Assembly: GCA_907163375.1 (NCBI GenBank)
Contig: CAJQUW010014405.1
Location: 1-64,000, forward strand
Direction: 5' to 3'
DNA: 64,000 bases
Source: Prostheceraeus crozeri
Taxonomy: Eukaryota; Platyhelminthes; Polycladida; Euryleptidae
The notes below the pieces were generated by a model that saw only the letters and a list, made by a program, of their open reading frames with translations, made no database searches and was not told the DNA's origin. Both the position numbers and the translations under genes were made by a program. Shown here one piece after another: positions 29,644 to 55,930 of this stretch; within the stretch, counting starts at the first letter, position 1; each line of letters opens with the position of its first letter.

Positions 29644-30062
29644 TCTATTTTGATGATATGTTTCCCTATTGGTGCGTGCGTAAATCAGCTGATGCTCTCA
29701 GCCAATGAGCGTGCTGCTTGCAATGAGTGAAAACTTGACTTGCAAAATATTTTCATGATCAAACGTTTTTTGGAGTGTTTATCATAGCCTAAACCTTTCA
29801 ATGTGACATCTAATGGATTGGGTAGCTATCATCAAGATTAGTCGCGGAAATGAAGTAATTGTGACAGTATATTAATCGTCCATCGGTCATTTATCAAGAA
29901 AGCTATTGGTCAACAACGCTTTTTAAAACTATGTTGCATCAGTGTCGCTTCACAACTTCTAGAGCTGTTTTTTCATCGAATGGTCTGTGTGTCTAAGGCA
30001 CTTAATGACCTGAAATCATATTTCCATCATGTGTTAGCTTCTAGCCTTCCGTCTCTTTTTGA
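29644..30062 (+). repeat. Large inverted repeat, left arm
   Basis: About 420 bp that recurs, inverted and with small differences, at 32629-33102. The shared segments run continuously from TGTTTCCCTATTGGTGCGTG at the outer end to the AAAGAGACG-type segment at the inner end. Confidence 0.75.
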
Positions 30063-32628
30063 CGATGTTTCCTTAAGAAAGAGAACTAAAAATAAAGAAA
30101 TATTCATAATTTGATGAATATCCCAAGACATCAATCAGAAGAAATGTCGACGAATCACATATGGAATTGCTCCTGATATAATATTTCGTGAAGACGTCTA
30201 TGTTATTTCACCACAAAGCCAATTCATCGGAAACGCAAAATATAAGACCAGATAGATCGAATATCTAAAGGCAAAGGTTTTGATGGCTGAAATTGCCTAC
30301 ATAGCAATGCAAGCTGAAGACTACAGCCTGATTCCGATCGCGTTATTGTTTATTCTATATTTTAAGGATGTGAGAATCATTTAATAGTTGCGCTTGTAGA
30401 ATACGGTAGTGAGCAACGGCGTCTTCTCCGTACCTGCGAGGCCTTCGGCGCATCCTCAAAATTAATTTTCCAACAATTATAAAAATGAAAAGTGTCATCA
30501 TACATTTAAATTCCATAGCTTCTCGTGACAGCTGTGCACAGCTTTCCGTCTCAAAGTCAACCTCATTGAACAGTTTTGCAGCACGTTCTCGAATCACAGC
30601 TGTTATCTTAGAACAATTAGACACACAAGCTGTTCGTGTGTTCAGACGGAGCATTGATGTTCAGACAGAGCGAAGGAGAGTTGTGTGCGTGTGAGGCAGT
30701 AAGCGCACGCGCCCGCGCCAATATTGGCTTTTCCGATAGACATGATGCTTTGCCTTCTCCAATTTTTGCAATGAAATTCTACGCGATTCTTGATCGAGGC
30801 GCGGTATTTAAATATAGTAAGGGAAGCGCACCCCAATTGTTCCTGGATTCGCTTTATGTCAGAGAGACCAATACGTCAACTGTAGCAGATGGCTGACGGT
30901 CAGACAAGACTGCGATCAGATGATGAGCGTTCTCCAATGAATGCAGAGTAATGCATCTGACTCGAACACCCAGATCCGGTAGAATTCCATGATTTGTTTT
31001 TATGTGATTAATGTGAGACTATATGTTTAGTACTGCAGATGAGATCACAACCACGCCTTTCGTCCGAAGGGAATATACTGAAAAGATGACAGTCGTCAAG
31101 CGAACACCTGATATGAAAATTGAAAGTGCTCACAGAGAAAGAAATAAGAAATACACAAGACATTTTAATGTATCAAAATTTCAAACATGTGTGCGGCTGA
31201 CCGGTCGTGAGAAACTGTTGACCTTGCTTCCTTATTTCTCGAAAAAATGTGGTCTGGACAGAGAGGGATATAGTAATCAGTTCCATGAGTAAGGCGGTTA
31301 AGAGACATGAGCAATCACTTCTCATGTGCACATTCACTTGGCATTAAAAAATGTTCGGGAAATGGTTATTAAAAATTCAACTTTTATGAAAATTAGTGTT
31401 GTAACATAAAAAATGTCTGGTATAGAAATAGTATTCCAATGCCGAGTGAAGGCCTATGGTCTGGGCGCACGCGACGCCACTGGTGCTGAACTATTATAGC
31501 CAACTATTAATTTAGTATCTTTTATATGTACCGGTATGTAATATCTTGCTGCATTCCTAGCAAAAGACGATGTAATATTGCATTGTCTTTGTTCGCAGCT
31601 GGTAATTGATTCACTCATCTTTCTGATGCAAAATGAACTATACTACGATCAGCTATAGGTTGTGCAAGTCTAGAGGCAATTATTAACCGATAAATTCTGG
31701 CTTATATTCCGAGATATTCATCAAATACTATGGTCGCGCTACATCCAAAGCTACTAATCTTAGCTCCTGAAAACGAACTACCCTAGCTTTTAAGCATATA
31801 TGTCTCTTGTTTATTAATTCATGCATCAAATTTTGTAGCGATCGGTTGAGTTCTACGGTTCCTAGAATGGACTTCAGCATTTGTGGCCAAAAATCTTAAG
31901 TCTCGTTAGTCTCTCCGATTGGCATGCCTGCTAAGCTGATGTGAGACATTCATGAAAAATATTTCTTCTTTCAAGGACAGAATGATGATGCATTACGGAA
32001 TGATGAATTTAAAATCAATCGACGTGCACTAGAGTAAATAGACTTCAGTTATGGAATTAAGATGCATATAATTTTAGCAATAGGATAAAATTCCGGCGAT
32101 CAGACCGGTGCAGCTGAAAAAAATATTTTATGATCACCTACTTTTATGCACGTATGCTTCAATCCTCTTCGGCTTCTTTATTAGTATTGAATGTTAGTAT
32201 TTATCCTCAAAGCTTAGAAAGAGAAAGTACATCGTACAATAAATTGTTAAGCCTACTATTACACATCATTCAAAACATTTTCTAGTATGCATTTTTTTGC
32301 TTCAGCTAAGGTGCCTGATCGTTATACATCGCTCTGTGGATGAAGACAGGCATATTTCAATTCCATAATTGAAGGTTATTCAATGCTCAAAGTTATTCGA
32401 TTGACCTTGACTTTATCATCCAGTAATTCAGAAAATAGTTATTTCATTCAAATGATTTTAGATATTCAAAATGTCAAATCACACGCAAATGTTGTATTTT
32501 TCCATTGATTTTCGAGCTGTAATTGGAAATCTGTCGGTATACATCGGCCCATGAGTCCAAGTTCTCGTCGCCGGCCCCATCCATGGCGATGGGCCCTACC
32601 CTTTGGCCCCATCCAACTGGCTAATCTC
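30063..32628. other. Loop between the large inverted repeats
   Basis: About 2.6 kb with no recognisable transposase or other conserved protein. A - frame at 30654-30355 encodes one hydrophobic helix followed by a basic stretch (MTLFIFIIVGKLILRMRRR) but has no family resemblance that I can name. Confidence 0.35.
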
Positions 32629-33102
32629 AAAAAGAGACGAAAGACTAGAAGCTAACTCTTGATAGAAATATGATTTCAGGTCATTAAGTGCCTTAGACAC
32701 AGAGACTATTCGATGAAAATGTAGTTGAGAATTGATTGTGACTATATCATCACATGTTTTTATTAGGCTATTCTGTGCTTAGTTAGAAGTTGTGAAGCGA
32801 CCCTATGCAACATAGTTTTGAAAAGCGTTGTTGACCAATAGCTTTCTTGATAAATGACCGATGGACGATTAATATACTGTCACAATTACTTCATTTCCGC
32901 GACTAATCTTGATGATAGCTACCCAATCCATTAGATGTTACATTGAAAGGTTTAGCCTATGATAAACACTCCAAAAAACGTTTGATCATGAAAATATTTT
33001 GCAAGTCAAGTTTTCACTCATTGCGAGCAGCACGCTCATTGGTTGAGAGCGTCAGCTGATTTACGCACGCACCAATAGGGAAACAGATATCATGAAAATA
33101 GA
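32629..33102 (-). repeat. Large inverted repeat, right arm
   Basis: Inverted counterpart of 29644-30062, slightly longer because of small insertions. Together with the loop this is a ~3.46 kb fold-back structure, most simply a non-autonomous transposon with long terminal inverted repeats. Confidence 0.75.
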
Positions 33103-35679: not shown

Positions 35680-35685
35680 GTAATA
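35680..35685. repeat. Polinton target site duplication, left
   Basis: GTAATA, repeated exactly at 55925-55930 immediately outside the inverted repeats. Six bp is the known duplication length for Polintons. Confidence 0.92.
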
Positions 35686-36075
35686 AGTAGTGAAAACTGT
35701 GCCCTACTTGCCACGGATAGGTACATGGATAGGTACATGTAAAGTTTAGTGTTATCAATAGGTACATGGATAGGTACATGTAAAGTTTAGTGTTGTCAAT
35801 AGGAACATGGATAGGTACATGGATAGGTACATGGATAGGTACATGTATACTTTAGTTATCGATAGGCACATGGATAGGTACATGTATAATTCAGTGTTAT
35901 CAATAGGAACTTGTATGAGATCTGTTTTACTGGATAGGTACATGTGTTTGGTACACTGTGTTTCGGAACGTCTATGATCGAACTTATGTGGTTTCGTTCT
36001 GAGCACTTGGGTACGTACCGATAGACGTCCGTTGTTTGATTTTGAATGGGTTTGCTCAATTGCGACTATTGTGAC
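35686..36075 (+). repeat. Polinton left terminal inverted repeat
   Basis: 390 bp matching 55533-55924 inverted with minor differences. The outer half (about 35717-35950) is made of iterated GGATAGGTACATGTA/GGATAGGTACAT units separated by AAGTTTAGTGTTATCAAT-like spacers. Frames across it (repeated TYPCTYL or MYLSMYLS) are artefacts of the iteration. Confidence 0.93.
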
Positions 36076-36136
36076 TATTGCAACCATTGTAATCAAGATG
36101 ACACATTGATTTTCCTTTTACGTAGACAAACTATGC

Positions 36137-36144: not shown

Positions 36145-36158
36145 TGAGATAGTTTTTG

Positions 36159-36668
36159 ATGACATACATAATGATGACTAGTATCCCAACGTCGTGGGTT
36201 GTCGCAAGAGACCTTGGATATTCGTTCAAAGCCATAGAAACTGTAACAAATCTCAGTGAAAATATCAACGCTGGTGATTTAGTTGATCGACTAATGGATC
36301 TAGATGAGCATGCTATGAATCACAATTTGGATCGTAGGTGGATAGAGGATTTCTCCATGCTACACTGCAATGATAGTGAAATTAGGAGGATCAAATTGGA
36401 ACGATATGGAAAGAAGGAGACATCTGACAGTGTTTTAATAAAAAGTTCTCCCAATAAAAGTGACTTCAGAAGGAAATTAGAACAAGAGACATTTAAATTA
36501 TTATGTGAACGGAACTGCGTTAAATGTTTTAAACAGGAACGATCCCTTCTCTTTTTGCCATGTTCTCATAGCGTTATGTGTTCTACATGTTATGTACCCT
36601 TTGAAACTTCATCTTGTCCCCTTTGCGATGAAGAAATATCTTCAACAGTCACTGTATATCGTGCATGA
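36159..36668 (+). CDS. UBA-RING protein resembling an IAP tail
   Basis: About 169 residues. The N-terminal ~45 residues (VARDLGYSFKAIETV ... DLVDRLMDLDEH) look like the UBA domain found just before the RING in inhibitor-of-apoptosis proteins (GFS/GYS start, LV-x-x-L end). The C-terminus is a RING-HC finger at ~118-160: CVKC, then LFLPCSHSVMCSTC and CPLC, followed by SSTVTVYRA as in IAPs. There is no BIR domain. A role as an E3 ubiquitin ligase, perhaps blocking host cell death or degrading host factors, is inference. It lies just inside the left terminal repeat, the usual place for captured cargo genes. The first in-frame ATG is 36159. Confidence 0.65.
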   Translation: MTYIMMTSIPTSWVVARDLGYSFKAIETVTNLSENINAGDLVDRLMDLDEHAMNHNLDRRWIEDFSMLHCNDSEIRRIKLERYGKKETSDSVLIKSSPNKSDFRRKLEQETFKLLCERNCVKCFKQERSLLFLPCSHSVMCSTCYVPFETSSCPLCDEEISSTVTVYRA

Positions 36669-36723: not shown

Positions 36724-36745
36724 TATATAAGGAGGACATTGTACC
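36724..36745 (+). promoter_or_regulatory. TATA box plus downstream GGAGGACATTGTACC
   Basis: TATATAA at 36724-36730 followed at once by GGAGGACATTGTACC. A near copy (TATATAAA, GGATGACATTGTTCC) lies at 55041-55063 before another gene. The ATG of the downstream gene is 34 bp further on. Confidence 0.55.
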
Positions 36746-36778: not shown

Positions 36779-37402
36779 ATGTCAATCAGCATGTCGTTCA
36801 CTACCAACATTCCCATTTCAATAATTTACCGAAGTCAACTCTTCACGGGCAATATATTTTATTCTGCCGTGAATATAACTGGCTATAAAGCGGATTTGGT
36901 GGATCTGATGGAGGAAATAGTGAAGTATTTCCGCTGCGGAGAGGACGTTGTGGTGCAGAGAATGTTGATGAGAGTCGTGAACAACGCTCTTACACGAGTT
37001 GCAAGATTCTGGCTCAACGAAGTATTTCGCCCACTATCTCAAACGGAGATTGTACCGGAATACTCTCGCTGTTGGTGCAGCAGTATCCAACGGAAACTCA
37101 ACACATGTCTCCATGACATTATCACCTCCAGCTACTATGATGAGAAGGGTGAGAAGTGCAAACTGGACTTGTTCAGTGGACCGCCATCAGTAAGCATCAA
37201 TGTGGCTGCTCAAGGACATTCTGAGGTGATCAGTTTGCGGGCATACTATGCCAATATTTTAAAGACTTTCCATTTAAAGCCTTGCTGTATGTGTTGTCCT
37301 ATTTCAAAACATCTAATGAAAGACATTGAGCAGCTCATAACTGCTACAAATGAGACTCTAGCCGATGTGAGTGTATATCAGTTTCCCTCTACAACTTGCT
37401 AA
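36779..37402 (+). CDS. Polinton protein of unknown function
   Basis: 207 residues from the ATG at 36779, with a well-placed TATA box upstream. It is cysteine-containing (CWCSS, KPCCMCCPISKH) and probably mostly helical and soluble. I do not recognise the family. Its position next to the UBA-RING gene, outside the conserved morphogenesis block, suggests accessory cargo. It has a stop at 37400-37402 and no obvious damage. Confidence 0.55.
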   Translation: MSISMSFTTNIPISIIYRSQLFTGNIFYSAVNITGYKADLVDLMEEIVKYFRCGEDVVVQRMLMRVVNNALTRVARFWLNEVFRPLSQTEIVPEYSRCWCSSIQRKLNTCLHDIITSSYYDEKGEKCKLDLFSGPPSVSINVAAQGHSEVISLRAYYANILKTFHLKPCCMCCPISKHLMKDIEQLITATNETLADVSVYQFPSTTC

Positions 37403-37464: not shown

Positions 37465-37472
37465 TATATAAT
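37465..37472 (+). promoter_or_regulatory. TATA box before 37531 gene
   Basis: TATATAAT 59 bp upstream of the ATG at 37531. Confidence 0.4.
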
Positions 37473-37530
37473 GTTGTAAGTACTAAGCAAAAATTGTAAT
37501 TGTATTATCTATTTCCATATTAGAATAAAA

Positions 37531-37923
37531 ATGTCTGTAAAACGGAAGGCATCTTCTCGTCAATCGAAACGGTCCTTCAAACCTTCAAGTCAGTTTAAAA
37601 AGGCGTTGCGAAAGTTAAACAGGATACATGATAATAAGAAGAAGTGTAAATTGATTCAAAATTCAAGTGATGATTTCATTCGTGATTTAGCTTTTGCAAT
37701 ACACAAATGTCTACCTATTTACAAGCCTCTGTTGAATGCTGGCTCTTTGAATAGCATAAAAAAGTTTTCAAATCCAAGGAGTAGTGATAAGAAAAGGCGA
37801 AACTTAATTCAGCGCGGTGGTGGTGGGTTTCTAAGTATGTTAAATGATATTGGAAACAATATTAATGGTGTAATCAATAGTCCGCTTGGAAGGATTGCAG
37901 CAACTGCTGCAATGTTAATATAA
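37531..37923 (+). CDS. Small basic Polinton protein with GGG-F hydrophobic tail
   Basis: 130 residues. The first ~95 are very rich in Lys/Arg (SVKRKASSRQSKRSFK, later SSDKKRRNLIQR), then comes a GGGGF stretch and a hydrophobic C-terminal helix (LNDIGNNINGVI ... IAATAAMLI). The pattern FIRDLAFAIHKCL plus LIQRGGGGFL recurs in a small protein I recall from many animal Polintons. The layout suggests a virion core or membrane-active peptide released at the GG site by the element's protease, comparable with adenovirus minor core/pVI proteins. The function is inference. Confidence 0.6.
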   Translation: MSVKRKASSRQSKRSFKPSSQFKKALRKLNRIHDNKKKCKLIQNSSDDFIRDLAFAIHKCLPIYKPLLNAGSLNSIKKFSNPRSSDKKRRNLIQRGGGGFLSMLNDIGNNINGVINSPLGRIAATAAMLI

Positions 37924-37981: not shown

Positions 37982-37990
37982 TATATAAGG
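37982..37990 (+). promoter_or_regulatory. TATA box before 38075 gene
   Basis: TATATAAGG 85 bp upstream of the ATG at 38075, followed by AAGACGCTTTAAT. This is a looser version of the sequence after the TATA boxes at 36724 and 55041. Confidence 0.45.
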
Positions 37991-38074: not shown

Positions 38075-38809
38075 ATGACTCAGAAAATGTATACAATCAG
38101 AGAGGAAGGTGACGCTTTTGAGCAAGATCTCTTGAAGCTTCGTCCGACACGAAAGGTGCAAGGGATTGGAAATACGTTCTACTTTCAAACCTTGAATTAT
38201 GGTGATGATGGCTTTTATCTTCAAGTTCCATTCTTCCACAGTAATGGTATGTCTACATCAGGGTATAGCAATATGAGACAAATGCGAGTGACTTTTCCAA
38301 AATGGCAACAGGTGATTCTTAAAACTATTGACTCTTTCGCGAAAGAATGTGTTGAGCTGCCTGAAAGTGCTCCCACTCATTGGAGAAAGGCATTAGAGGA
38401 AGGAGTTGGTTATAAGGAATTGCCGGAATTCGATACACTGTTTTTAAAACTATCTGATCATTTTCAAGCATTCGATCTCTTTACAAACGCGATGGAATGT
38501 GAGGATCTCAAACGGGGCCGCTATATGGGCTTAGTTCACGTTACAGGACTTTATATTGGCTCACATGGTTCGACTGGTAAAGTCGCATCTTTACAAATGA
38601 AGGTTCTTCAACTAGTCTATGAACCACTACCAATTGATAAATGTTTAATTAACATTGATAAGACTGCTTCAAGTGATGGGAAGGAAGAGAGCAAAAAGCG
38701 AGGTCGGAAATCTAAAGATGGGAATCCTAAATTGAAGTTGAAGCGCCAAGATGCTGACTTGAAAACTTTCTATAATCCTAATTGTGATGAGGAAACACAA
38801 ATGTTTTAA
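38075..38809 (+). CDS. Conserved-looking Polinton protein, function unknown
   Basis: 244 residues, intact. The first ~190 residues look like a mixed alpha/beta fold (GNTFYFQTLNYGDDGFYLQV, YMGLVHVTGLYIGSHGS). The last ~50 form a basic, disordered tail (KKRGRKSKDGNPKLKLKR). A globular domain plus basic tail, next to the packaging ATPase, would suit a DNA-binding (possibly single-strand-binding) role, but I see no diagnostic motif. An AATAAA at about 38866, with GT-rich sequence after it, likely ends this transcript. Confidence 0.55.
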   Translation: MTQKMYTIREEGDAFEQDLLKLRPTRKVQGIGNTFYFQTLNYGDDGFYLQVPFFHSNGMSTSGYSNMRQMRVTFPKWQQVILKTIDSFAKECVELPESAPTHWRKALEEGVGYKELPEFDTLFLKLSDHFQAFDLFTNAMECEDLKRGRYMGLVHVTGLYIGSHGSTGKVASLQMKVLQLVYEPLPIDKCLINIDKTASSDGKEESKKRGRKSKDGNPKLKLKRQDADLKTFYNPNCDEETQMF

Positions 38810-38950
38810 TTTGTAAATGTTTTAATTTGTAAATGTAACTTGAAAGTTTCTATTCTGAATGTAAATAAACTTGATCTGGAACATGTGTCTGTTTTGTTGT
38901 TCTAAGCAAAATTAGCGGGATGATGAGTTTAATGTTAATGGAATTATAAG

Positions 38951-39586
38951 ATGACAGATTTTCGTCTATTCACTGATCGCACAATGTGTGTCGCTGGACC
39001 AAGTCAGTCCGGTAAAACTACATTTGTAACTGAATTGCTACAATATAGAAATGAAATGTTTAACAAGGAAATTAAGAGAGTCAAATGGTATTATGGAATA
39101 TTTCAACCACAACTACATTCTGCACTTCGCCAGAAAGGTTATGAGGTGAAGCAAGGGTTGCCATCAACTGAGGATATCAAAGCAGGTGACTTACTAGTAT
39201 TAGATGATCTATTACGAGAAAGCAAATCTTCAAAGGATGTAACTGAAATGTTCATTCAAACTGCACATCATAGGGAAGCTTTTATTATCTACATCACCCA
39301 AAACATCTTCGATGGAGGGAAAGAGCAAAGAACTAGAAGTTTGAATACACATTATTTGGCAATATTTAAAAATCCAAGAGATAGCAGTCAGATACATCAT
39401 CTCAGTAGACAGATATTACCTCAACAACCTAAAGTACTTTCAAAAATATATGAAGATGTAACAAAGAAACCACATGGTTATCTATTTATTGATCTAACCC
39501 AGGAATGTCCGGAACGACTTCGATTTCGAACAAATATCATACCTAATTCCGCTGAACCAATGACAGTTTTCTCGGTTCACAGTTAG
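38951..39586 (+). CDS. Genome-packaging ATPase (A32/FtsK-HerA type)
   Basis: 211 residues, the usual length for Polinton packaging ATPases. Walker A is GPSQSGKT at residues ~15-22, Walker B is LLVLDDLL at ~84-91, and a sensor-like glutamine lies in YITQNIF at ~117-123. In adenovirus-like and Polinton systems this enzyme pumps DNA into preformed capsids using ATP. It is read in the same direction as the integrase and capsid genes, as in other Polintons. No damage is visible. Confidence 0.9.
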   Translation: MTDFRLFTDRTMCVAGPSQSGKTTFVTELLQYRNEMFNKEIKRVKWYYGIFQPQLHSALRQKGYEVKQGLPSTEDIKAGDLLVLDDLLRESKSSKDVTEMFIQTAHHREAFIIYITQNIFDGGKEQRTRSLNTHYLAIFKNPRDSSQIHHLSRQILPQQPKVLSKIYEDVTKKPHGYLFIDLTQECPERLRFRTNIIPNSAEPMTVFSVHS

Positions 39587-39625
39587 TTTTAAGCAATGTA
39601 CTTTGTTGCCTTATTATTTTCAAAC

Positions 39626-40276
39626 ATGTCGTATTCAAAGATGGTAGTCATTCCTCAAGAGGAGTATGTACAATTGACTACATTACAAAGTGCACAGGAA
39701 GTCAAAAATATAGATCAACCTATTACGAATCAACTTAAGGAACTAACACAAAAGGATATGGAAATTCAGAAGATTAAGGATCCCTATCGACGAATGCAGT
39801 TAGCAGCTGAAAACATTGACGAGAGGCGACAGATTCGTGACAAGTTGCGACGATTTATAACCTTGTCAACACCTCGACCATATCGTGTGCGCGCTGAGCG
39901 ATTATTTGACTTCATTGATCCACATGTGAAGTTCAATGAGAGAGGGGAGATAATAGATGAAACAACTGGTGATGTTATTAGAAATAGTCACATAGATGAC
40001 CTTCTACAATATGCTGTCAGAGATGTAAGGCGAAAACTAGGTGCACCACAAGGGTGGACATATTTTCAGAAAATTTTATCTGATCAAAATGTACCTCACA
40101 ATATTATTGGAGGACCGACTGTGAATGAATTGGATAAGGGTCACTTACAAGATGGATCAAAGAGTAAAACACCCACGATGGCGGTCAAGCGAGAGCTTGC
40201 AGATCCCGATGATCTGCAACCAAAAAGAGCTACTAGGCGCTCAATGCGTGTTGCGAAGGAGTATAGTAAATATTAA
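39626..40276 (+). CDS. Polinton protein of unknown function
   Basis: 216 residues from the ATG at 39626 (MSYSKMVVIPQEEY); an upstream in-frame ATG at 39596 would add ten hydrophobic residues. The N-terminal third is a charged helix/coiled-coil-like region. The middle (YRVRAERLFDFIDPHVKFNE ... SHIDDLLQYAVRD ... GWTYFQKILSDQNVP) resembles a protein I recall from many invertebrate Polintons. The C-terminus is basic (QPKRATRRSMRVAKEY). No enzymatic motif. It lies between the ATPase and integrase genes, so a morphogenesis or DNA-binding role is possible. Confidence 0.6.
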   Translation: MSYSKMVVIPQEEYVQLTTLQSAQEVKNIDQPITNQLKELTQKDMEIQKIKDPYRRMQLAAENIDERRQIRDKLRRFITLSTPRPYRVRAERLFDFIDPHVKFNERGEIIDETTGDVIRNSHIDDLLQYAVRDVRRKLGAPQGWTYFQKILSDQNVPHNIIGGPTVNELDKGHLQDGSKSKTPTMAVKRELADPDDLQPKRATRRSMRVAKEYSKY

Positions 40277-40443
40277 GCAAATATGAATTAAGCCTTGCCT
40301 CTCTCATATTATGTCGTTACAAAAATTTTGCTGTTGTTTGAAATCTGCGCTCGAAGGCAAAGGAGAAGAGGGCATAGAGGTTGATATCAATTGTGTTAGC
40401 AGTTGCTGTGCGAGTAATACGCGTGCAAATCAGAACAAAGACG

Positions 40444-41532
40444 ATGAGTACAGCAGTGAAACTCAGAAAGATTTATTACGACTTAAATCATCCCGCAAGT
40501 TTCAGTCGTCCGGAGGTTCTAGCTCGTGCAGCAGGTGTGGGAATAGAGAAAGTCAAGAAGTGGTTGAGGAGTCAACCGACTTACACTCTTCACAAAAATG
40601 CGAGAAAGCGGTTTCCAACAAGAAAATATGTTGTTAACAATATAGATAGTCAATGGCAAGCGGACTTGGCTGACATACAACAGATATCACAGTACAATGA
40701 TGGCTATAAATACATCTTAACCGTAATAGATATTTTATCTCGCTATGCTTGGGCACGTGCGCTGAAATCTAAACGAGGACCAGAAGTTGAAGCGGCTTTT
40801 CAGAGCATTTTCGATGAGGGGCGTGTTCCGCAAAGAATACAGACCGATCAAGGGAAGGAATTCGAAAACTCTCATGTTCGAAGTCTCCTTAAAAGTCATA
40901 ATGTGGAATTGTTTAGTGTCAAAAGTGCTTATAAAGCTGCCATGGTTGAGAGGTTCAATCGCACACTGAAGACAAAAATATGGCGCTATTTCACTGCAAA
41001 AAATACACATGTTTGGGTAGGTGAGCTGCAGAAATTTGTTAAGAATTACAATGAAAGCTACCATCGAATCATTAAGATGAAACCAGTTGATGTTACCCCA
41101 GATAATGCGATGGATGTATGGCTTCGATTGTATGATAAGAAAGCGAAAAACATTTCCAATGAAAAGAAAATTAATGTTGGTGATAGAGTTCGGATTTCAA
41201 AGGTTAAGTCTACATTTGAGAAGGGGTATCTACCTAATTGGACTGAAGAAGAGTTTTTTGTGGATGAAGTAAATACAAAATTTAGACCCACCATGTATAA
41301 ATTAATAGATTACCATGGCAATCCAATTGAAGGAAAATTTTACTCTTATGAATTGCAAGTAGTAGACAGAAGTGAAGAGGTGTATATGATTGATAAAATA
41401 ATTAGGAGGAAAGGTCATGGCAATCAAAGGAAATATCTAGTTAAATGGAAAGGATATCCTGATTCATTCAATAGCTGGATAACGCACCAGGATCTACAAA
41501 ATGTGGAGATGGGAGACACTCGTAACTTTTAA
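40444..41532 (+). CDS. Polinton integrase (RVE/DDE) with C-terminal chromodomain
   Basis: 362 residues from the first ATG at 40444 (MSTAVKLRKIYYDL); the frame is open upstream to 40381 but without an ATG. An N-terminal helix-turn-helix region (HPASFSRPEVLARAAG) is followed by the retroviral-type catalytic core. The first D is in WQADLADIQQ (~79), the second in IQTDQGKEF (~139) and the E in VERFNRTLK (~175). A beta-rich segment follows (VGDRVRISKVKSTFEKG), then a chromodomain at ~311-355 (VYMIDKIIRR ... YLVKWKGYPDSFNSWI). It joins element ends to target DNA. The chromodomain may direct insertion by reading histone methylation. Intact. Confidence 0.93.
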   Translation: MSTAVKLRKIYYDLNHPASFSRPEVLARAAGVGIEKVKKWLRSQPTYTLHKNARKRFPTRKYVVNNIDSQWQADLADIQQISQYNDGYKYILTVIDILSRYAWARALKSKRGPEVEAAFQSIFDEGRVPQRIQTDQGKEFENSHVRSLLKSHNVELFSVKSAYKAAMVERFNRTLKTKIWRYFTAKNTHVWVGELQKFVKNYNESYHRIIKMKPVDVTPDNAMDVWLRLYDKKAKNISNEKKINVGDRVRISKVKSTFEKGYLPNWTEEEFFVDEVNTKFRPTMYKLIDYHGNPIEGKFYSYELQVVDRSEEVYMIDKIIRRKGHGNQRKYLVKWKGYPDSFNSWITHQDLQNVEMGDTRNF

Positions 41533-43674: not shown

Positions 43675-43684
43675 AGCTAATACG

Positions 43685-44968
43685 ATGCAGAGTATCAATT
43701 CGGCTTTGTGTTTCTTCGATTCTCCCCCTCATCAGACAGACATCATCTCCTCAACAATTGTAGACATAGTCCCCACAACAAATATCGATGGTAACCAGCA
43801 GCCTATTCAGTTTGATATACCTGCCAATCCTCAAGATTATATTGACTGTCAATCCATTGATTTAGAGTTGTGTATACAAATTAAGAAGACTGATGGTACA
43901 AATATCGATTCATCCAAGGATAAAGTGGGGTTAGCAAATCTTCCTATTGCCAGTCTGTTCTCAGATGTGTATCTAATATTGAATGACAAACAGATTGAAG
44001 GAGGGGATCGAGCATATCCATATGGAGCATATATACATACAATGACTCAATTTCAAAAGCAAGCTAAACAGTCACACTTGCAAGTTTCTGGGTGGTATGA
44101 TGATCAGCAAGGGAAATTTGATGATGTCTCAAATACAGGGTTGAAAAGACGAATGGATTTAACAGCGGATTCAAAGGAATTATACTTGAAAGGACCCGTC
44201 TATCTTGATTTCCTTCGTCAATCTAGATATCTGCTATCACAGGTTAAAATGCAAATAAAATTTATTCGTGCAAATCCTGAGTTCGCGTTAATGGCTTTTG
44301 GAGCTACAAACTATCAAGTCAACATAAGTAATGCCGTGCTCAATGTAAGGCGAGTAACAATGAACCCGTCAGTCATCAACGAGCATGCGACAGGATTGAG
44401 GAAAAACAATGCAATATATCCAGTTAATCACAGTGTGTTGACAAACTTCACAATTGGTGCGGGATCATCCTCACATGCCTACCCAAATCTTTTTCCCACT
44501 GCAATGCCAAAGGCGGTGTATATCACATTTGTGGAAAATGAGGCATTCATTGGTGCTTTTGAAAAGAATCCATTCAATTTCCAACACTTTAATGTTAGCA
44601 AACTAGCACTCTATCAGGATGGGAAATTTGTATCTTGCAAAGCATATGAGCCTAATTTCAAAGATGGTAAATTCGCACGTGAATATGGTTCTATTTTCAC
44701 CGCCCTCAACATGTTTAATACAGACGATTCAAATGGAATTACAATGGATATGTACAAGAATGGCTACTTCTTCATTATGTACAACCTCACAGCAGATGCA
44801 GATCTAGGTGGTGAAAGCGGAGGAGTTACAAAGCCTGGAAATCTACGACTGGAGGTATCATTTGAGTCACCTTTGAAGAAAATAATTAGTTGTCTCATTT
44901 ATGCTATCTATGATAGCAAAGTTGAGATAACAAGAATGAGAGACGTGACTGTCACCTATCAGAGATGA
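43685..44968 (+). CDS. Major capsid protein (hexon-like, double jelly-roll)
   Basis: 427 residues, intact. It is the largest late-type protein in the element, lies directly after the penton and core genes, and overlaps the protease start by 4 bp (ATGA at 44965-44968). The sequence is beta-rich with features seen in Polinton capsid proteins: QPIQFDIPANPQDYIDCQSI near residue 40, NLPIASLFSDVYLILNDKQI near 88, and a C-terminal LEVSFESPLKKIISCLIYAI. I recall this protein type from animal genomes, where it is often annotated as an uncharacterised repeat protein. The double jelly-roll fold is inferred from family position and would need structure prediction. Confidence 0.75.
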   Translation: MQSINSALCFFDSPPHQTDIISSTIVDIVPTTNIDGNQQPIQFDIPANPQDYIDCQSIDLELCIQIKKTDGTNIDSSKDKVGLANLPIASLFSDVYLILNDKQIEGGDRAYPYGAYIHTMTQFQKQAKQSHLQVSGWYDDQQGKFDDVSNTGLKRRMDLTADSKELYLKGPVYLDFLRQSRYLLSQVKMQIKFIRANPEFALMAFGATNYQVNISNAVLNVRRVTMNPSVINEHATGLRKNNAIYPVNHSVLTNFTIGAGSSSHAYPNLFPTAMPKAVYITFVENEAFIGAFEKNPFNFQHFNVSKLALYQDGKFVSCKAYEPNFKDGKFAREYGSIFTALNMFNTDDSNGITMDMYKNGYFFIMYNLTADADLGGESGGVTKPGNLRLEVSFESPLKKIISCLIYAIYDSKVEITRMRDVTVTYQR

Positions 44969-45429
44969 GTAACTTAAGCAACATAGAAATCTTGAGGAAA
45001 ATGAGGAAAGCTCATCCCTACTCCAAGACAATATTTCTCAATGTCTTTTCTAGAGATAATTTACCTGATTCAATTCCTTTCTATCCTTGTTCGCTTATCA
45101 TCAATACGGATACCAACAATCTTCCCGGAAAACATTGGATTGCTGTATACATCAATCGTTATAAAGTTGCCGAATATTTTGACTCTCTTAATCAACCTCG
45201 TTTACATGATATCGCATTATGGATGAACAGGTTTTCCTGGACTGTTAGGAAAGTGACATCGTTCCCACTTCAAAGTAATACATCTCTAATGTGCGGTGGC
45301 TATGTACTCTATTTTGTCAACGAGAGACCATTGAAAAATAACTGTAAAAGTGCTTTAGAACTATTTTCAAAAAACTGTGATAAAAATGATGTAATTCTTA
45401 CTAAATATGTTGAAACAGTTTTGAAATAA
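44965..45429 (+). CDS. Adenain-like cysteine protease
   Basis: 154 residues. The catalytic set of the adenovirus protease family is visible in order: His in GKHWIAVYI (~55), the acidic partner in AEYFDSLNQP (~71), Gln in FPLQSN (~98) and Cys in SLMCGGYVLYF (~106). It is expected to mature capsid proteins such as the GG-containing core proteins. Its ATG overlaps the stop of the major capsid gene, indicating coupled arrangement. AATAAA overlaps the stop region at 45424-45429 and probably ends the + strand transcripts. Confidence 0.9.
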   Translation: MSNLSNIEILRKMRKAHPYSKTIFLNVFSRDNLPDSIPFYPCSLIINTDTNNLPGKHWIAVYINRYKVAEYFDSLNQPRLHDIALWMNRFSWTVRKVTSFPLQSNTSLMCGGYVLYFVNERPLKNNCKSALELFSKNCDKNDVILTKYVETVLK

Positions 45430-45496: not shown

Positions 45497-45582
45497 CATG
45501 CTCATATTTCATTATCTATTCACATATATACAAAAAACATGTTCACATTTCATTATCTATCCACATATATACAAAATCTACA
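45497..45582. repeat. Tandem duplication of ~43 bp between convergent genes
   Basis: Two adjacent copies of a CAT(G)CTCA-TTTCATTATCTAT-CACATATATACAAAA unit. It sits between the protease gene (+) and the TBP-like gene (-), i.e. in the shared 3' region. Confidence 0.7.
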
Positions 45583-46147
45583 ATTTGGTTTTCATGAAAC
45601 ATTTTTTCAAATCACATATGATGGGAGGCACATCACTTATGTCTTTAATGCCGGTTATCACAATCTTTCCATTATGGAACACATGAACATGATATGGATG
45701 CCAGTTAGTCAATTGAGCTGCTGGAAATAACTCCACTTCATAAGTTAGATTATGTGATGATGTAACTTTACGGAAATCATTGTGATAGTGTAATTCACAT
45801 AACACGGTCATTGTCTTCACTTTCCAATCAGATAATGAATCACCAAGTAAATGTTCCAAAGTTAAGTGTAGATATGAGAGATCACCCTCCATGACCCTTC
45901 CAATACATTGGATTGTTCCATTTGGAAAGAATAGGATAGTGAGAGATCTATCCTTCCTCTGAATCCTCCATGTTAACATTGAGGGTCTTCCAAGATGTAA
46001 GCTCGTTGTCGGCTTCAATTTGCGTTTTATCAGTAACCATTGTTTTCGGTTGGGTATATTCCTCTCGATCTCTTGTAGATTGAGTTTTGACTTTGCTTTT
46101 GTAGTTAACATCCGATTTACAACTTCCAACCGTTTGATGTCCTCCAT
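45578..46147 (-). CDS. TATA-binding-protein-like factor
   Basis: 189 residues, intact. It can be laid along the whole TBP core. VVNRMLTTKAKSKLNLQEIE corresponds to the first strand and helix. MLTWRIQRKDRSLTILFF and PNGTIQCIG correspond to the end of repeat 1 (…IFSSGKMVCTG). TVLCELHYHNDF starts repeat 2. YEVELFPAAQL matches the well-known YEPELFPGL segment, and VHVFHNGKIVITGIKD matches the IFVSGKVVLTGAK segment. The DNA-intercalating phenylalanines are partly replaced. A role as transcription initiation factor for the element is inferred. Its 5' 200 bp overlap the 3' end of the 45948-46508 gene in another frame. Confidence 0.72.
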   Translation of the reverse strand: MEDIKRLEVVNRMLTTKAKSKLNLQEIERNIPNRKQWLLIKRKLKPTTSLHLGRPSMLTWRIQRKDRSLTILFFPNGTIQCIGRVMEGDLSYLHLTLEHLLGDSLSDWKVKTMTVLCELHYHNDFRKVTSSHNLTYEVELFPAAQLTNWHPYHVHVFHNGKIVITGIKDISDVPPIICDLKKCFMKTKL

Positions 46148-46508
46148 CTTTAATGAATGACGTTATCTGTGGTAGTATCTCCCTTGTAAAGGTTTCCCAT
46201 GTGAAGTCACTGAAACGAAAAAATCGATATTCAACATCTTCACGTTTTGGTGAACAGACGTATAGTTTGACTGATGAATCACACTTTATCCATACCTTGT
46301 CATCGAGAGGAATCTTGATCCGAGTCTTATGGTTGTCAATGAGATCCGCAAAGTCTTTCAGTGAAGGCAATGAGTCAATACTAATGCAAACGCCACGATG
46401 TTTTCGATCACTATTTGCTATTGAATGACGAAATGCTATTCTTTTAGAATTTGTTATGTGAACGTTTTGAACGTCACTAAGTTTCCATGTTCTAATGTAA
46501 TGAGGCAT
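45948..46508 (-). CDS. Possible PC4-like DNA-binding/transcription cofactor
   Basis: 186 residues from the ATG at 46508. Residues 1-65 (TWKLSDVQNVHITNSKRIAF ... RGVCISIDSLPSLKDFADLI) and 70-120 (KVWIKCDSSVKLYVCSPKRE ... FTWETFTREILPQI) each show the strand-strand-GI(S)L-helix plan of the PC4/p15 coactivator domain, so it may be a two-domain PC4-like protein. The last ~65 residues are polar and disordered and lie in the region overlapping the TBP-like frame. The assignment is tentative. Its position beside a TBP-like gene is the main supporting context. Confidence 0.4.
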   Translation of the reverse strand: MPHYIRTWKLSDVQNVHITNSKRIAFRHSIANSDRKHRGVCISIDSLPSLKDFADLIDNHKTRIKIPLDDKVWIKCDSSVKLYVCSPKREDVEYRFFRFSDFTWETFTREILPQITSFIKDGGHQTVGSCKSDVNYKSKVKTQSTRDREEYTQPKTMVTDKTQIEADNELTSWKTLNVNMEDSEEG

Positions 46509-46570
46509 GTTCCGAAAGCTATGTCTCAAATTTAAGTTTAATGTTTGCCTAAAGTTTGTTATTTTATTAG

Positions 46571-46740
46571 CTCAACATATCGGAATGATGTTGAGTACAA
46601 ATTCTTCACATATTCATTCACATTAGGACTACCTATTTATTAGTAATCATTTCTACATATCGGAAAGATGTAGAAATTTCAATTTTAGTAAGACTACTTA
46701 TGTATTAGTAAGTGTTGCTACATGTCGGAAGATGCAGCAA
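46571..46740. repeat. Three related stem-loops with TCGGAA loops
   Basis: 46571-46595 (stem CTCAACAT, 8 bp), 46650-46676 (stem TTTCTACAT, 9 bp) and 46715-46740 (stem TTGCTACAT, 9 bp with one mismatch) share an ATCGGAA/GTCGGAA loop. The spacers also repeat (GACTAC-TAT-TATTAGTAA). They lie between the end of the polymerase frame and the start of the PC4-like gene. Confidence 0.7.
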
Positions 46741-46792
46741 TCGCAAGATCTATTACAAGTGGAATATTATATTGTTTTTATTTAGACTTATT

Positions 46793-49700
46793 CTACATCA
46801 CCTGTGACAGGAAGGCATCTCCTTCTCTTCGACGGTGATGACTGTCATAGTTTGAAGAGTCAAACTTTTCACCGAAGTATAGAAGTATATCTTCCAGACG
46901 GACAGATGGTGATGTGTATAAACATAGGAAGAAACTATCGGTATCACCTCCACAAAGTCGCGTTCTATTTATCAGTGGACATCCTTTTAGATCATTGTAA
47001 TATAATTGATACATTTCCAACTTACTATAGTCAAGTACTGCTTGACCAACATATATTAATTTATTTAAAACTATTGAAGGTTTGTACATTTCCATACCAA
47101 CCAGATCTTCATCAAATATTTTGTGTTGAACATAGAGAGGATGATTTGACAATTTCAGTAGTTGTTTCTCATTGTTGACTAGTTTAAATTTTTTCCTTCT
47201 CCTTACATTTTCCATTGTTTTACCATATAAAGAATTATTTTTCAATTTGTAGAATGACTTTTCGAAGTCAGTGTTTGATTGAGCCCTCTTTTGAGAGTTC
47301 ATATCAATGTATGTTTTTAACCAAGGCTTTTGTGTGAATTTTATGCCACTATGAATCTTCTTGATTCTCATGCCCATGCTCAAGTAAAATTTTAAAATTG
47401 AATAGTGGACTACATAATTTTCCCTATCAAATTGATGGAGCAGAAGTTTCTTGATAGAAGAAAAATGTGTATTTGGTCTTACTTTTTCATATAGATTTTT
47501 CATATAGTGTGAAAACATTCTCTTTTCAATCATCTGCATTTCTGGAGCTAATGGGAAATCGGCAGTGTCATCATGAATGGCTGCAGGATACTCTAAATCT
47601 AAATCAAAAATGTAGCCGATTTCACCATCATCATCTATATTTTGAACATTTTCTTCATTTAAAAAATTATCTAATTCACTTTCATTCAACCATTTGAAAT
47701 TTGAGTGGGGTAGATTCCTACTGAGTGAAGAACCGTAAAGGTTATTAACATCTAAGTAGGTCAAATGTCGACTTTCATGTATATTATTTCCTAATTCTTC
47801 AATGCGTGCACGCGCTCGGTGAATGTTGGTGAAAGTCATACCCCCTCTAATTCCTCGTTCAAATAGATTGTACATATTTTCATCTTGTATGTAGTGTGGG
47901 GGATCATTGGAAGAGAAATTTAGTGCTGAGGTAAAGCTAAGATGTGGGAGACTGACAAAATGTACAGGGTCGACTTCATCCTCACGTTGACTCAATGCTC
48001 TAAACACTTCAAATATGTCTGCCAACAATAAAACATCTAACTTCAGATATGCCAGCATGTAATCACCAAATGTGCTACAATTAAATTCAATCCACGCCTT
48101 GTTAGCGTGTTCATATTCACTATCGGAACAGTGCTCACGAGTAAGATCATTATAGAATTCAAATTGTGGTGGTAGACAGTCTTCCGTCAACGTGTTTAAG
48201 TTTTTGAAGTATGAATATGGAAACACTCCCTTCTGATATAAAACATTATCACTTAATTGTGGAAATTCTACCCTTAATGTCTCTACATGCTCATACGTTT
48301 GCAAGCCCTTGGCTAATTCACTCAAGGATGCACTTAGAAATTGATATGAGTCTAAGAATTTTAGTTTAAAGTATACTGTCTTCCCTTTGTATTCATTTAC
48401 AGGGACACTGGCGGATAAAGTTATATATTTTTCAGCAGTTGCTGCTACAACATCTAATTTCCAAGACTTCATTCTTCCAATCGCTTGTATAGCAAACGAT
48501 GTGGCTATCATAATTTTTAAAATTGTGGAAAAATATGGGGAGCTCCCGTCTGTTAAGTCTTAACCGGAGATTGCATTTCCTACATAATGTTTGCCTATAT
48601 CGTCCGGTGATATGATCATGATCACGAACTTTTATGACTTCATCGCTGAATTTTGATTTACATTTGTTGCAACATTCTGCATTCTCGTGGCGTGCTTTTT
48701 CATCCGCTGACAGTGACATTGGCTGCCTAGTTGTTGCACATTGGTTGTCATATAAGTCTTGGGCTACAGTTTCTAAGTGGTGCAAGAAACTAATAATGCA
48801 ATTTTCTCCCTCAAAGAGGTAATACTTGTTTTCAAATTTTGATTGAAGGGCATTATGCCAGACATGATAAGCTCCAATAGCCGCAGGTTTATGTATTTTA
48901 TTATCAATGTAGCACTCTATATCTGCATAAATTACTAAAGGAGGACTTAGTTGATATTCCATGCTACTTGTTAGTACTTTTAGATCTGTCGGCATTTTTT
49001 CTATTTGTGCTTTTCCTCGAATGCAAAACTGGAAATGTCGTTCTAGTGTTGTCTTATATGTGAATGACTGAGTGCATCTTTCGCAGAAGTATTTATGTCT
49101 TTTTAAAGTTCTCCTATACAATCTTGACAGCTTTGGAATTCCACAATAGTGTGCTGCTCCATTGTTTAGAATTAGCAAAATATTAACCGTTTGCCTACCA
49201 GTAAAGTTACTATTGTAACGAACACCTTTGAGTCCATTTTCATAAAAGTGAATGTTAATTTTAATATCATTATTTTTCTCAAATTTTGGAATATCTTTGA
49301 TTGATACTGGTGTGGAAATGCCTTCCATATTTAGCTCAGATGTCCACTCACTATATGATTTTACTTCATTCCTTGAATAAGGTACTTCATTATAATGCAA
49401 TATTGATAAAACTGCATATAGGAAGCAATCATTTGCATTTGAATTAACATTAATGACAGCTTTAGAGTTTTTTAACTTCTTTGGTAGAGGAAATGATTGT
49501 CCACCTGACAGTATTGGACTTGTCATTACATTGAACTCTATATTTTGTACATCATCTATAATCCAATTGCTACCCTTTTTTGTGAAGGCTTCAATATGAT
49601 TTATTAGACTATTTAGATGATCCTGAAACCAAGCATCATAGTCATAAATATAGTTTGAGGATGATGAGGTAAAGTGTGCGAGAAAAGTTTCTTCTTCTTG

Positions 49701-50267
49701 AGGATTAGAACGGACATAACGAATTTGTGCAATCAGACGACCGCGCAATTGATAGCTCCTTAGTAAGTCAGACACTAAATTCCCTAACATGGAACGCATG
49801 CTTTCTAAGAATGATGTTATGTCCACAGTAGGTGTTGTTGGCGTGATATCATACACACGTGCATGGCCATTGAGTGCGCTTTCACTGAGACTAACAGTTC
49901 CATAGTTATAATGCATATTCATCTCACTATTTGTGTTATGTACATTCATATGCTGTCGAAATCTACTTATAGAGTTATACGTTTTGCCACACCGAGAGCA
50001 GTATTGCATAAAGTTTTGTATGTTAGTTGAAGCGCTGGTTGTTGGCTTAGAAGTAGATCTATTTTGATTATTTGAATTTGACTCTGTTATGCTATCATTC
50101 GGTTTATTATTGCATACAAGTCTATGCCTCTTAAGATTATCCATCCTATTCGTCTTATATGGACACTTGCTACATTGATACGTTTTTCCTAACTTACAAA
50201 ATTTTTCATGTCGTTGCAAATTGCCTATGAGAGTGAACACTTTTCCACACTTGGTACAGACAACCAT
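46793..50267 (-). pseudogene. Protein-primed family B DNA polymerase, frameshifted and 3' truncated
   Basis: Two overlapping frames (50267-48432 and 48511-46793) form one ~1,160-residue polymerase. The order is: three C2H2 fingers (~5-50, ~90), an OTU-like region (NDCFLYAVLSILHYNEVPYS ... AHYCGI, ~275-380), a fourth finger, ExoI (VIYADIECYID), an endonuclease-VII-like zinc site (CNKCKSKF ... VRDHDHITGRYR), and ExoII (FHNFKNYDSH), where the frame changes near 48500. ExoIII follows (YLKLDVLLLADIF), then motif A (YLDVNNLYGSSL), motif B (KNNSLYGKTM) and motif C (GGDTDSFF). It stops ~40 residues after motif C, so the thumb/KxY region is absent. It would replicate the element from a terminal protein. 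A TATATAAG box lies at 50299-50306. Confidence 0.88.
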
Positions 50268-50298: not shown

Positions 50299-50306
50299 CT
50301 TATATA
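50299..50306 (-). promoter_or_regulatory. TATA box before polymerase
   Basis: TATATAAG on -, 32 bp before the polymerase ATG at 50267. Confidence 0.5.
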
Positions 50307-54419: not shown

Positions 54420-54881
54420 CTAAATGTCATCAAGGTAAGGAAAGGGTACAAGTTTTTTCAAGTCCACTTGCACATGGATCCTGGTCTTCTTGGGCGCACA
54501 GGGACAGCGACGTGGTGTGTCAAGGTCGATGACCGAAAATTCGAGAGCGGTTGTGAGGTTCCGCTCGTTCGGCTCCATCCTCATGAACACCCGTTTGGTG
54601 TGATACTTTTTCGGGGCGTTCTTGACTTTGACCGTGACCCGTCCATAAAGTGGCGTTCGCATGGACTTCTTATTCATGTGACGCATCGTCTCAATTGATA
54701 CGTCACTATCCTCATCACTCGAGTAGTCGGGCGATGCAGGGGCTTGGGTGAACACCACCGGCTCGTTTGGTGTTGTCGATCGCTCCATCGGAGATTGGGG
54801 AGGTGTACTGGTACGTTCCACTGGCGAAGTGGTACGATCAGCAGTAGCGTTCTCAACTGCGGCTTTCTGTTTGCGATCCAT
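54420..54881 (-). CDS. Polinton protein of unknown function
   Basis: 153 residues. The N-terminal ~65 are Ser/Thr/Pro-rich and disordered (TTSPVERTSTPPQSPMERST). The C-terminal ~80 are basic and beta-like (YGRVTVKVKNAPKKYHTKRV ... TRIHVQVDLKKLVPFPY). No family recognised. TATATAAG on - at 54963-54970 lies ~82 bp upstream, so promoter and ORF agree. It is divergently arranged with the 55106 gene. Confidence 0.5.
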   Translation of the reverse strand: MDRKQKAAVENATADRTTSPVERTSTPPQSPMERSTTPNEPVVFTQAPASPDYSSDEDSDVSIETMRHMNKKSMRTPLYGRVTVKVKNAPKKYHTKRVFMRMEPNERNLTTALEFSVIDLDTPRRCPCAPKKTRIHVQVDLKKLVPFPYLDDI

Positions 54882-54962: not shown

Positions 54963-54970
54963 CTTATATA
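54963..54970 (-). promoter_or_regulatory. TATA box before 54881 gene
   Basis: TATATAAG on -, ~82 bp before the ATG at 54881. Confidence 0.45.
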
Positions 54971-55040
54971 CTTTTTAAACAAAGGAAATCCTAACAGCCA
55001 ATCAGAGAGGTACCGAACTTCCCTAAAGAATATATATAAC

Positions 55041-55063
55041 TATATAAAGGATGACATTGTTCC
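55041..55063 (+). promoter_or_regulatory. TATA box plus downstream GGATGACATTGTTCC
   Basis: TATATAAA at 55041-55048 followed directly by GGATGACATTGTTCC. This is nearly the arrangement at 36724-36745 near the other end of the element. Confidence 0.55.
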
Positions 55064-55396: not shown

Positions 55397-55532
55397 ATTA
55401 AACTTACATTGTAAATCTCTTGTCTTTTCATTTTAAACATAGTTCTGGAATTGGTTTTCTTATTGGGGAGCAACTAAATCATAACTGCACAGTAAAGTTT
55501 CACATCTAAATAGTGCTACATTAAAAATAATT

Positions 55533-55924
55533 GTCACAATAGTCGCAATTGAGCAAACCCATTCAAAATCAAACAACGGACGTCTATCGGTACGTACCCA
55601 AGTGCTCAGAACCAAACCACACAAGTTCGATCATAGACGTTCCCAAACACAGTGTACTCAACTGAGTGTACCAAACACATGTACCTATCCAGTAAAACAG
55701 ATGTCATACAAGTTCTTATTCATAACACTGAATTATACATGTACCTATCCATGTGCCTATCGATAACTAAAGTATACATGTACCTATCCATGTACCTATC
55801 CATGTTCCTATTGACAACACTAAACTTTACATGTACCTATCCATGTACCTATTGATAACACTAAACTTTACATGTACCTATCCATGTACCTATCCGTGGC
55901 AAGTAGGGCACAGTTTTCACTACT
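55533..55924 (-). repeat. Polinton right terminal inverted repeat
   Basis: 392 bp, inverted match of 35686-36075, with the same ATGTACCTATCC iterations. The outer end is GGGCACAGTTTTCACTACT. Confidence 0.93.
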
Positions 55925-55930
55925 GTAATA
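55925..55930. repeat. Polinton target site duplication, right
   Basis: GTAATA, identical to 35680-35685. Confidence 0.92.

Follow-up and report, generated by a model that had tools for sequence, protein, structure and literature searches.

A Polinton of the polyclad flatworm Prostheceraeus crozeri encodes a 189-residue protein, P0001, for which it is near certain from sequence comparison that it is a two-lobe member of the TATA-binding protein (TBP) family, and which likely acts as an initiation factor. The reading considered probable here is that P0001 is a Polinton-specific TBP-family initiation factor, recruiting host TFIIB and Pol II at the promoters of the element. In accounts of the origin of many eukaryotic dsDNA viruses, Polintons often stand close to the root, and little is known of their transcription. 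The gene lies in a stretch of 64,000 nucleotides, termed the window in the following (contig CAJQUW010014405.1 of assembly GCA_907163375.1, positions 1 to 64,000 of the forward strand).

The element and its genes

The gene is located in an element of 20,239 bp which, as claimed in an earlier sequence-only reading of the window, is a Polinton. TIRs of about 395 bp (96-99% complementary), a perfect 6-bp TSD, PolB and an RVE integrase with chromodomain (Table 1) are shared with Polintons/Mavericks and adintoviruses. The outermost 20 nt are identical at both termini and, as the TIRs are in addition flanked on both sides by GTAATA, the whole is a 20,239-bp Polinton insertion. PolB, predicted to be of the protein-primed type, is split over two frames in this copy, and the 3' region of polB is about 375 nt longer in 19 of 19 other fetched copies. 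Going by the gene order of Polintons, ORF 38951..39586 is taken to encode the packaging ATPase and ORF 43685..44968 the capsid protein; the latter, which in a Polinton would be a double jelly-roll protein, matched no Pfam family, and a 26-member profile of it gave no PDB sequence match. The protease ORF runs convergently with the TBP gene. As a side observation, GATAGGTACATG-type repeats occur inside the terminal repeats (35700-35960, mirrored at the right end).

Table 1 Coordinates of the Polinton, its genes and its upstream motifs in the window
Feature	Position	Strand	Remarks
Left TSD GTAATA	35680..35685		flanks left TIR
Left TIR	35686..36079		inverted-repeat arms, 96-99% complementary
RING-finger ORF, TTG start	36156..36668	+	zf-C3HC4_3 E=1.6e-10
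TATATAA box	36724..36730	+	55 nt before ORF at 36779
TATATAA box	37465..37471	+	66 nt before ORF at 37531
TAAGCAA motif	37484..37490	+	47 nt before ORF at 37531
TATATAA box	37982..37988	+	93 nt before ORF at 38075
TAAGCAA motif	38903..38909	+	48 nt before ATPase ORF
Putative packaging ATPase	38951..39586	+	AAA_14 6.7e-05 (under curated cut-off); phrog_6891 ATPase 9e-4
TAAGCAA motif	39590..39596	+	36 nt before later in-frame Met (39626) of ORF 39596-40276
TAAGCAA motif	40274..40280	+	37 nt before ATG 40311; 107 nt before TTG of integrase ORF
RVE integrase with chromodomain	40381..41532	+	rve 3.4e-13, Chromo 1.4e-09
GCTAATA motif	43676..43682	+	9 nt before capsid ORF
Putative major capsid protein	43685..44968	+	160 homologs at E<=1e-3, of which 120 listed
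Putative maturation cysteine protease	44965..45429	+	PDB S273R E=6.7e-4; Peptidase_C48 0.033, under cut-off
TBP-like gene, 189 aa (P0001)	45578..46147	-	ATG-to-stop ORF; Pfam TBP
ORF U (o193; 186 aa from first ATG)	45948..46508	-	overlaps start of TBP gene by 200 nt, frame +2
PolB C-terminal frame	46793..48511	-	DNA_pol_B_2 2.1e-19; damaged copy
PolB N-terminal frame	48432..50267	-	C2H2 fingers and Endonuclease_7 match (Pfam)
TATATAA box	50300..50306	-	39 nt before PolB start
TATATAA box	54964..54970	-	89 nt before ORF 54420-54881
TATATAA boxes, two	55033..55047	+	73 and 65 nt before ORF at 55106
Right TIR	55529..55924		inverted-repeat arms
Right TSD GTAATA	55925..55930		flanks right TIR

Homology of P0001 to TBP

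A profile search against TBP, which had been proposed together with the sequence-only reading, gave a match of P0001 to the Pfam TBP family PF00352 at E=1.3e-12 and 47.8 bits (cut-off 22.9). Using phmmer, 38 PDB sequences were found with P0001 at E<=10, the top 35 of which are TBP entries (best E=9.2e-05), among them the ECU04_1440 protein, presumably a microsporidian TBP; the final three are unrelated to TBP. The archaeal TBP model of NCBIfam aligned to residues 6-177 with E=6.9e-07, though scoring far below the model's own cut-off, and thus covers both lobes. With A2, a profile of 31 family members, 35 PDB sequences were obtained at E<=1e-3, all of them TBP entries (again including the ECU04_1440 protein), the best being an archaeal TBP at 6.8e-24, and the profile aligns to archaeal TBP 2z8u over almost its whole length (positions 9-182 of 184). 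PF00352 is matched by 31 of 31 A2 members (E<=0.01). Pfam detects a single TBP stretch at this threshold in P0001, whose own N-lobe does not reach it, and two stretches each in the TBPs of two other loci of the genome (L034 and L033). A chance resemblance to TBP is ruled out by the Pfam and A2-profile matches, and a saddle fold is predicted for P0001 via the profile alignment to solved TBPs. The earlier description of a protein tracking the TBP core is borne out by the extent of the archaeal-model and A2 alignments, and the YEVELFP segment is present as described. An N/HNGK-I-TG segment had been claimed twice and is found in the second lobe (HNGKIVITG), whereas its counterpart in the first lobe is PNGTIQCIG, in which both Lys and Thr are missing.

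Distribution in the host genome and in metagenomes

Searching the 2.05-Gb genome of the host with P0001 resulted in 150 scored matches, 150 of which are full length, 99-100% identical and free of stops; being the best of 10,659 candidates, they constitute a biased sample and a lower bound. At least 150 near-identical (99-100%) copies of the Polinton TBP gene thus reside in the genome, pointing to a recent large expansion. In a genome search with the Pfam TBP family, the best 150 of 10,983 comprise two rows for the canonical host TBP (contig C9306), two for a gene on contig C3829, which is taken to be TBPL1-like, and 146 others. The frames of these 146 are often open for 180, 234 or 292 aa, and an internal stop occurs in eight. 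Ten of the 146, picked for variety and not at random, were fetched with 5 kb around them, and all ten adjoin Polinton genes. At seven loci, protease and capsid homologs come after the TBP gene in convergent orientation, which is also the arrangement of the window; at the remaining three (L033, L037, L040), a PolB homolog is found nearby instead. Assigned by best match, the fetched loci represent three further Polinton families, so that a TBP-family factor is common to at least four Polinton families of this genome. The search for the gene in other Polintons, which had likewise been proposed, therefore found it beside Polinton genes at each locus fetched, with relatives in metagenomes as well. 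As the gene is common to related Polintons, it is suggested that these elements steer how the host transcription machinery reads them.

A metagenome profile search with the TBP family gave 190 proteins at E<=0.01, of which 120 were listed. For nine of the 120 listed capsid-homolog rows, the contig is exactly as long as that of a listed TBP-homolog row, contig identity being deduced here from equal length; a null of random offsets of 1-150 nt gave a mean of 1.1 and a maximum of 6 in 5000 sets. Given nine matches against 1.1, some metagenome contigs seem to carry a TBP and a capsid gene together. One of the nine pairings, P0003/P0158 (3433), is probably due to chance, as sources and identity ranks disagree, and was rejected. 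No TBP relatives were found in IMG/VR, GTDB genomes or phages, and no relatives of the capsid-type protein in IMG/VR, in both cases with a single-sequence confirming step that could miss distant ones.

Residue anatomy and phylogeny of the family

The A2 alignment consists of 31 rows chosen from 121 proteins (P0001-P0121, many of them fragments), for which yeast TBP numbering is used unless otherwise noted. Across the 121 proteins, the N-lobe motif [R/H/Q]P.M occurs in 91 and a YExELFP-type stirrup in 115, and the cellular strings RFAA and FPGL in none. In comparison to cellular TBP (yeast 1YTB, archaeal 2z8u), the family shares the two lobes as well as F116, E186, L189, F190, P191, F207 and G216, kept in 31 of 31 rows, with Glu or Asp at E188 and Thr or Ser at T215 in all 31; both acidic TFIIB-contact residues, E186 and E188, are thereby retained. 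N69 is Asn in 20 of 21 rows (10 gaps) and N159 in 20 of 31, with Thr in P0001. Unlike in cellular TBP, the F99 position is occupied by Pro in 28 of 28 rows that are not gapped there (3 gaps), leaving three of the canonical four DNA-kinking phenylalanines, V122 is replaced by Gln and T124 by Leu, Ile, Val or Phe in 31 of 31, and W149 and H153 (P0001 numbering) are new and uniform in 31 of 31; Q80 is likewise shared by all 31. In the 31 aligned members, the C-lobe thus retains its DNA-kinking phenylalanines, and the DNA face of the N-lobe is altered. The charge of the N-lobe helix is +3 in yeast TBP and -4 in P0001, with a family range of -6 to +5; hence, loss of the basic patch is a property of the window's subfamily rather than of the whole group.

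A retained TFIIB stirrup next to an altered N-lobe DNA face, together with the altered basic helix of the window's subfamily, would also suit an interference factor which titrates host TFIIB or blocks host promoters and so shuts down or redirects host transcription. Such a function is rather improbable, however, since the invariance of F116, F190 and F207, N69 in 20 of 21 rows and Thr or Ser at T215 throughout exceed what a decoy needs.

In a 24-row tree, 20 Polinton-type rows are split from four cellular rows with a support of 100/100. The cellular rows are yeast TBP, a piece of the host TBP, a piece of the host TBPL1-like gene and an archaeal TBP; two of them are partial, branches are long and the tree is unrooted. 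Polinton TBPs accordingly appear as a group separate from cellular TBPs, and the host TBPL1-like gene (partial sequence, long branch) is likewise separate from them and groups with the cellular TBPs. Genes of this kind usually stem from a host, which would suit a recent capture of the host TBP or TBPL1 gene as passive cargo; yet such a capture is scarcely credible in view of this split, of the common Q80, W149, H153 and Pro at F99, and of the presence of the gene in diverged Polinton families, and recent capture of host TBP was rejected on the tree split and the residue signature.

TFIIB and the proposed mode of action

A whole-genome search with the TFIIB domain (PF00382), which more diverged TFIIB-like genes would escape, gave four hits at two loci, read as host TFIIB and a BRF-type gene. 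These two loci stand against the 146 TBP-like rows left once host TBP and the TBPL1-like gene are set aside (among the best 150 of 10,983). A Pfam scan of 24 ORFs of the element gave no TFIIB and no RNA polymerase match. As TFIIB domains occur at only two loci of the genome, the factor probably uses host TFIIB and Pol II; and since the TFIIB-contact residues are kept in addition, the protein is best read as an initiation factor encoded by the element itself. From the proposal in the sequence-only reading that the protein serves as a self-encoded initiation factor acting with TATATAA, the first part is thus retained, whereas binding to TATATAA is not supported in the form proposed, as the boxes stand at only some ORFs, host TBP should bind them in any case and the DNA face of the N-lobe is altered.

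According to the mechanism envisaged, the Polinton TBP would bind promoters of the element in the host nucleus through its TBP saddle, with the combination of a canonical C-lobe and an altered N-lobe leading to a shifted DNA preference. Since F99 and T124 are lost in the N-lobe, TATA binding and bending may be weak. The retained YExELFP stirrup would recruit host TFIIB and thereby host Pol II, as the element itself yielded neither a TFIIB nor a polymerase; we infer that the Polinton factor relies on host TFIIB. Because the basic N-lobe helix is lost in the window's subfamily, TFIIA, NC2 and Mot1, the readers of the basic patch, may not control the Polinton TBP there.

Virus-encoded TBP-like factors are already known. 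Large dsDNA viruses encode TBP-like proteins according to PMC7221094, PMC10132985, PMC11464507 and PMC5825884, and hence resemble the 20-kb Polinton in this respect, from which they differ in size. PMC7221094 reports that the acidic TFIIB signature of viral TBPs is variable (about 40% at one position), and that almost all viruses with a TBP-like sequence have a TFIIB-like one as well; by contrast, the acidic signature is uniform in the 31 Polinton-family members and TFIIB domains occur at two loci of the genome only, with the viral TBPs being compared by description. KSHV ORF24 is, according to PMC12529657, a herpesvirus late-gene TBP mimic with altered DNA face acting at late promoters and not at canonical TATA boxes. 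Being a viral TBP-like factor with altered DNA face, it is similar to the Polinton TBP, but shows the opposite pattern: in ORF24, the two N-lobe phenylalanines are present and the acidic TFIIB-contact residues missing, whereas the Polinton TBP loses one N-lobe Phe and keeps the acidic residues. Animal TBPL1/TRF2, a TBP relative, resembles the Polinton TBP in its changed N-lobe DNA contact (PMC7221094). In the literature searched, with most subscription journals outside its scope and sources partly accessible, no TBP gene has been described for Polintons, Mavericks or adintoviruses; the accessible parts of PMC10675990, PMC10132985, PMC12220804 and PMC11464507 describe no Polinton TBP, and that of an animal virus survey containing adintoviruses (PMC11071296) has no mention of 'tata' or 'tbp'. 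TBPs in mirusvirus-linked elements without Polinton capsid or polymerase genes are reported in a Cymbomonas paper.

With neither a TFIIB nor a polymerase detectable beside it, such a shared and separate TBP group would represent a viral initiation system reduced to a minimum and attached to host Pol II. The family also offers natural TBP variants in which the DNA face of one lobe is changed and the TFIIB face kept, and promoter choice by TBP-bearing elements becomes directly testable.

Promoter motifs

All promoter motifs were chosen after looking and form small classes, with starts taken as ORF starts, not mapped transcripts. Counting both strands, TATATAA occurs nine times in the element, where a first-order Markov simulation gives 5.7 +- 2.5, and is therefore not enriched overall. 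An element-wide enrichment was consequently rejected in favour of positional clustering only: seven of the nine sites are followed by an ORF start at a distance of 39-93 nt. The ATPase, integrase, capsid, protease and TBP ORFs have no TATATAA in the 150 nt that precede them. From the earlier statement that TATATAA promoters stand throughout the element, the position of most boxes before ORFs holds, but neither an overall excess nor boxes near these five ORFs. In 120-nt segments upstream of 17 ORFs, all occurrences of GTATATAA and of TATATAAG are found (4/4 each); two such 8-mers were seen in none of 200 circular shifts, and some 8-mer scoring as well in 15 of 200. GCTAATA is likewise confined to these segments (4/4), with such a 7-mer in 3 of 200 shifts and an equal score in 9 of 200, and GATGAGT (4/5) and TGTGACT (4/6) also cluster there with similar scores.

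The clustering of the TATATAA boxes and of both 8-mers before ORFs would fit a Polinton TBP that binds the TATATAA boxes of the element, where it competes with host TBP or replaces it. This is doubtful, though, since host TBP is expected to serve such boxes unaided, the 31 aligned members carry substitutions on the N-lobe DNA face at F99, V122 and T124, and the five ORFs named above are without a nearby box.

Among the 7-mers located between -50 and -30 of 18 starts, TAAGCAA (seven copies in the element) ranks first with four hits, a number reached in 3 of 1000 shifts. At locus L032, which belongs to another family, both TAAGCAA sites (2/2) sit 38 and 34 nt before ORF starts; L034 has one, 60 nt before a start, and neither of two at L037 precedes a listed start. 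GCTAATA is absent from the 70 nt before the capsid ORF at five loci of other families. The motif classes overlap, with TATATAA and GCTAATA both at ORF 36779 and TATATAA and TAAGCAA both at ORF 37531. Under the initiation-factor reading, the Polinton TBP is probably used at TATA-less promoters (TAAGCAA or GCTAATA) and TATATAAG promoters could use host TBP, this being the weakest step of the mechanism. Extended to a large group of animal Polintons, a two-stage scheme on host Pol II can tentatively be drawn up, in which TATATAAG genes would be expressed via host TBP, and later TAAGCAA/GCTAATA genes via the element's own TBP of an old clade, which would use host TFIIB, escape the host TBP regulators and have a partner encoded in an overlapping frame; as a whole, this scheme is possible rather than likely.

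The overlapping ORF U and selection

At seven of eight loci including the window, frame +2 continues without a stop for 65-112 codons beyond the start of the TBP gene and frame +1 is shut within 15; at L040, the overlap is broken, with frame +2 closing after six codons past the TBP start. Upon codon shuffling with the TBP protein fixed, such openness occurred in 0-0.22% of 5000 trials for the seven loci, which are non-independent (p=0.0022 by chance at the window). The register of the overlap between ORF U and TBP is thus conserved across Polinton families. The overlapped part of U is similar in L032, L033 and L034, where FSF..A...L is followed by an acidic end; U of the window is shorter and without this string. 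U and TBP form one ORF in L035 and L037, and in metagenome protein P0086 a U-like start is joined to the TBP part (BLASTP 2e-4), with a score of 57 against 28 +- 5, which 2 of 2000 shuffles equalled. L034 and L039 have a second U-like ORF, 118 aa long, immediately upstream.

ORF U had no match in Pfam, PHROGs or PDB and one weak unrelated row in NCBIfam, and a PC4-like nature, an idea formed by eye, was dropped on these results. An overlapping partner without known domain, a PolB gene nearby in the window and at three of the ten fetched loci, and the fact that the TBP fold bends DNA would all be compatible with a DNA-bending factor serving replication or packaging rather than transcription; such a role is nevertheless very improbable, as it offers no obvious reason for keeping both TFIIB-contacting acidic residues in 31 of 31 members.

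Regarding selection on the full TBP ORF, dN is lower than dS in seven of seven pairs with computable dS (eight tried), e.g. 0.41 vs 1.70 for L031/L033 and 0.010 vs 0.051 for L034/L038; these loci were chosen by Pfam score and are thus selected, though less so than the first 20 copies. For the latter, a signal of eight variable sites (seven synonymous, one non-synonymous) was discarded, as the copies are the best protein matches. In the C-part alone, L031/L032 show a dN of 0.018 above a dS of 0.014, with few changes. In three L034-type pairs, dS is 0.014-0.028 in the overlap and thereby lower than the 0.12-0.15 of the C-part, as two coding frames would give, albeit from few events; no such reduction is seen for L031/L032 (0.015 vs 0.014) and L033/L040 (0.079 vs 0.052).

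Upstream of ORF U on the minus strand (46565-46760), hairpins with a similar loop (..TTCCGA..) and differing stems are found. Compared with shuffled sequences, two of three stretches are the better folders (z -3.0 and -2.2), and the third has a z of -0.2, its cut not covering its hairpin. Allowing up to three mismatches, the window contains the loop motif CATCNTTCCGANATGT 11 times vs 7.4 expected, which is no enrichment. Outside the Polinton, the window holds inverted repeats of 284 nt (29656-33088; 98% complementary) which are separated by 2.9 kb and may mark another transposon, and on the minus strand at 19937-22426 a LINE-type element ORF with reverse transcriptase and endonuclease.
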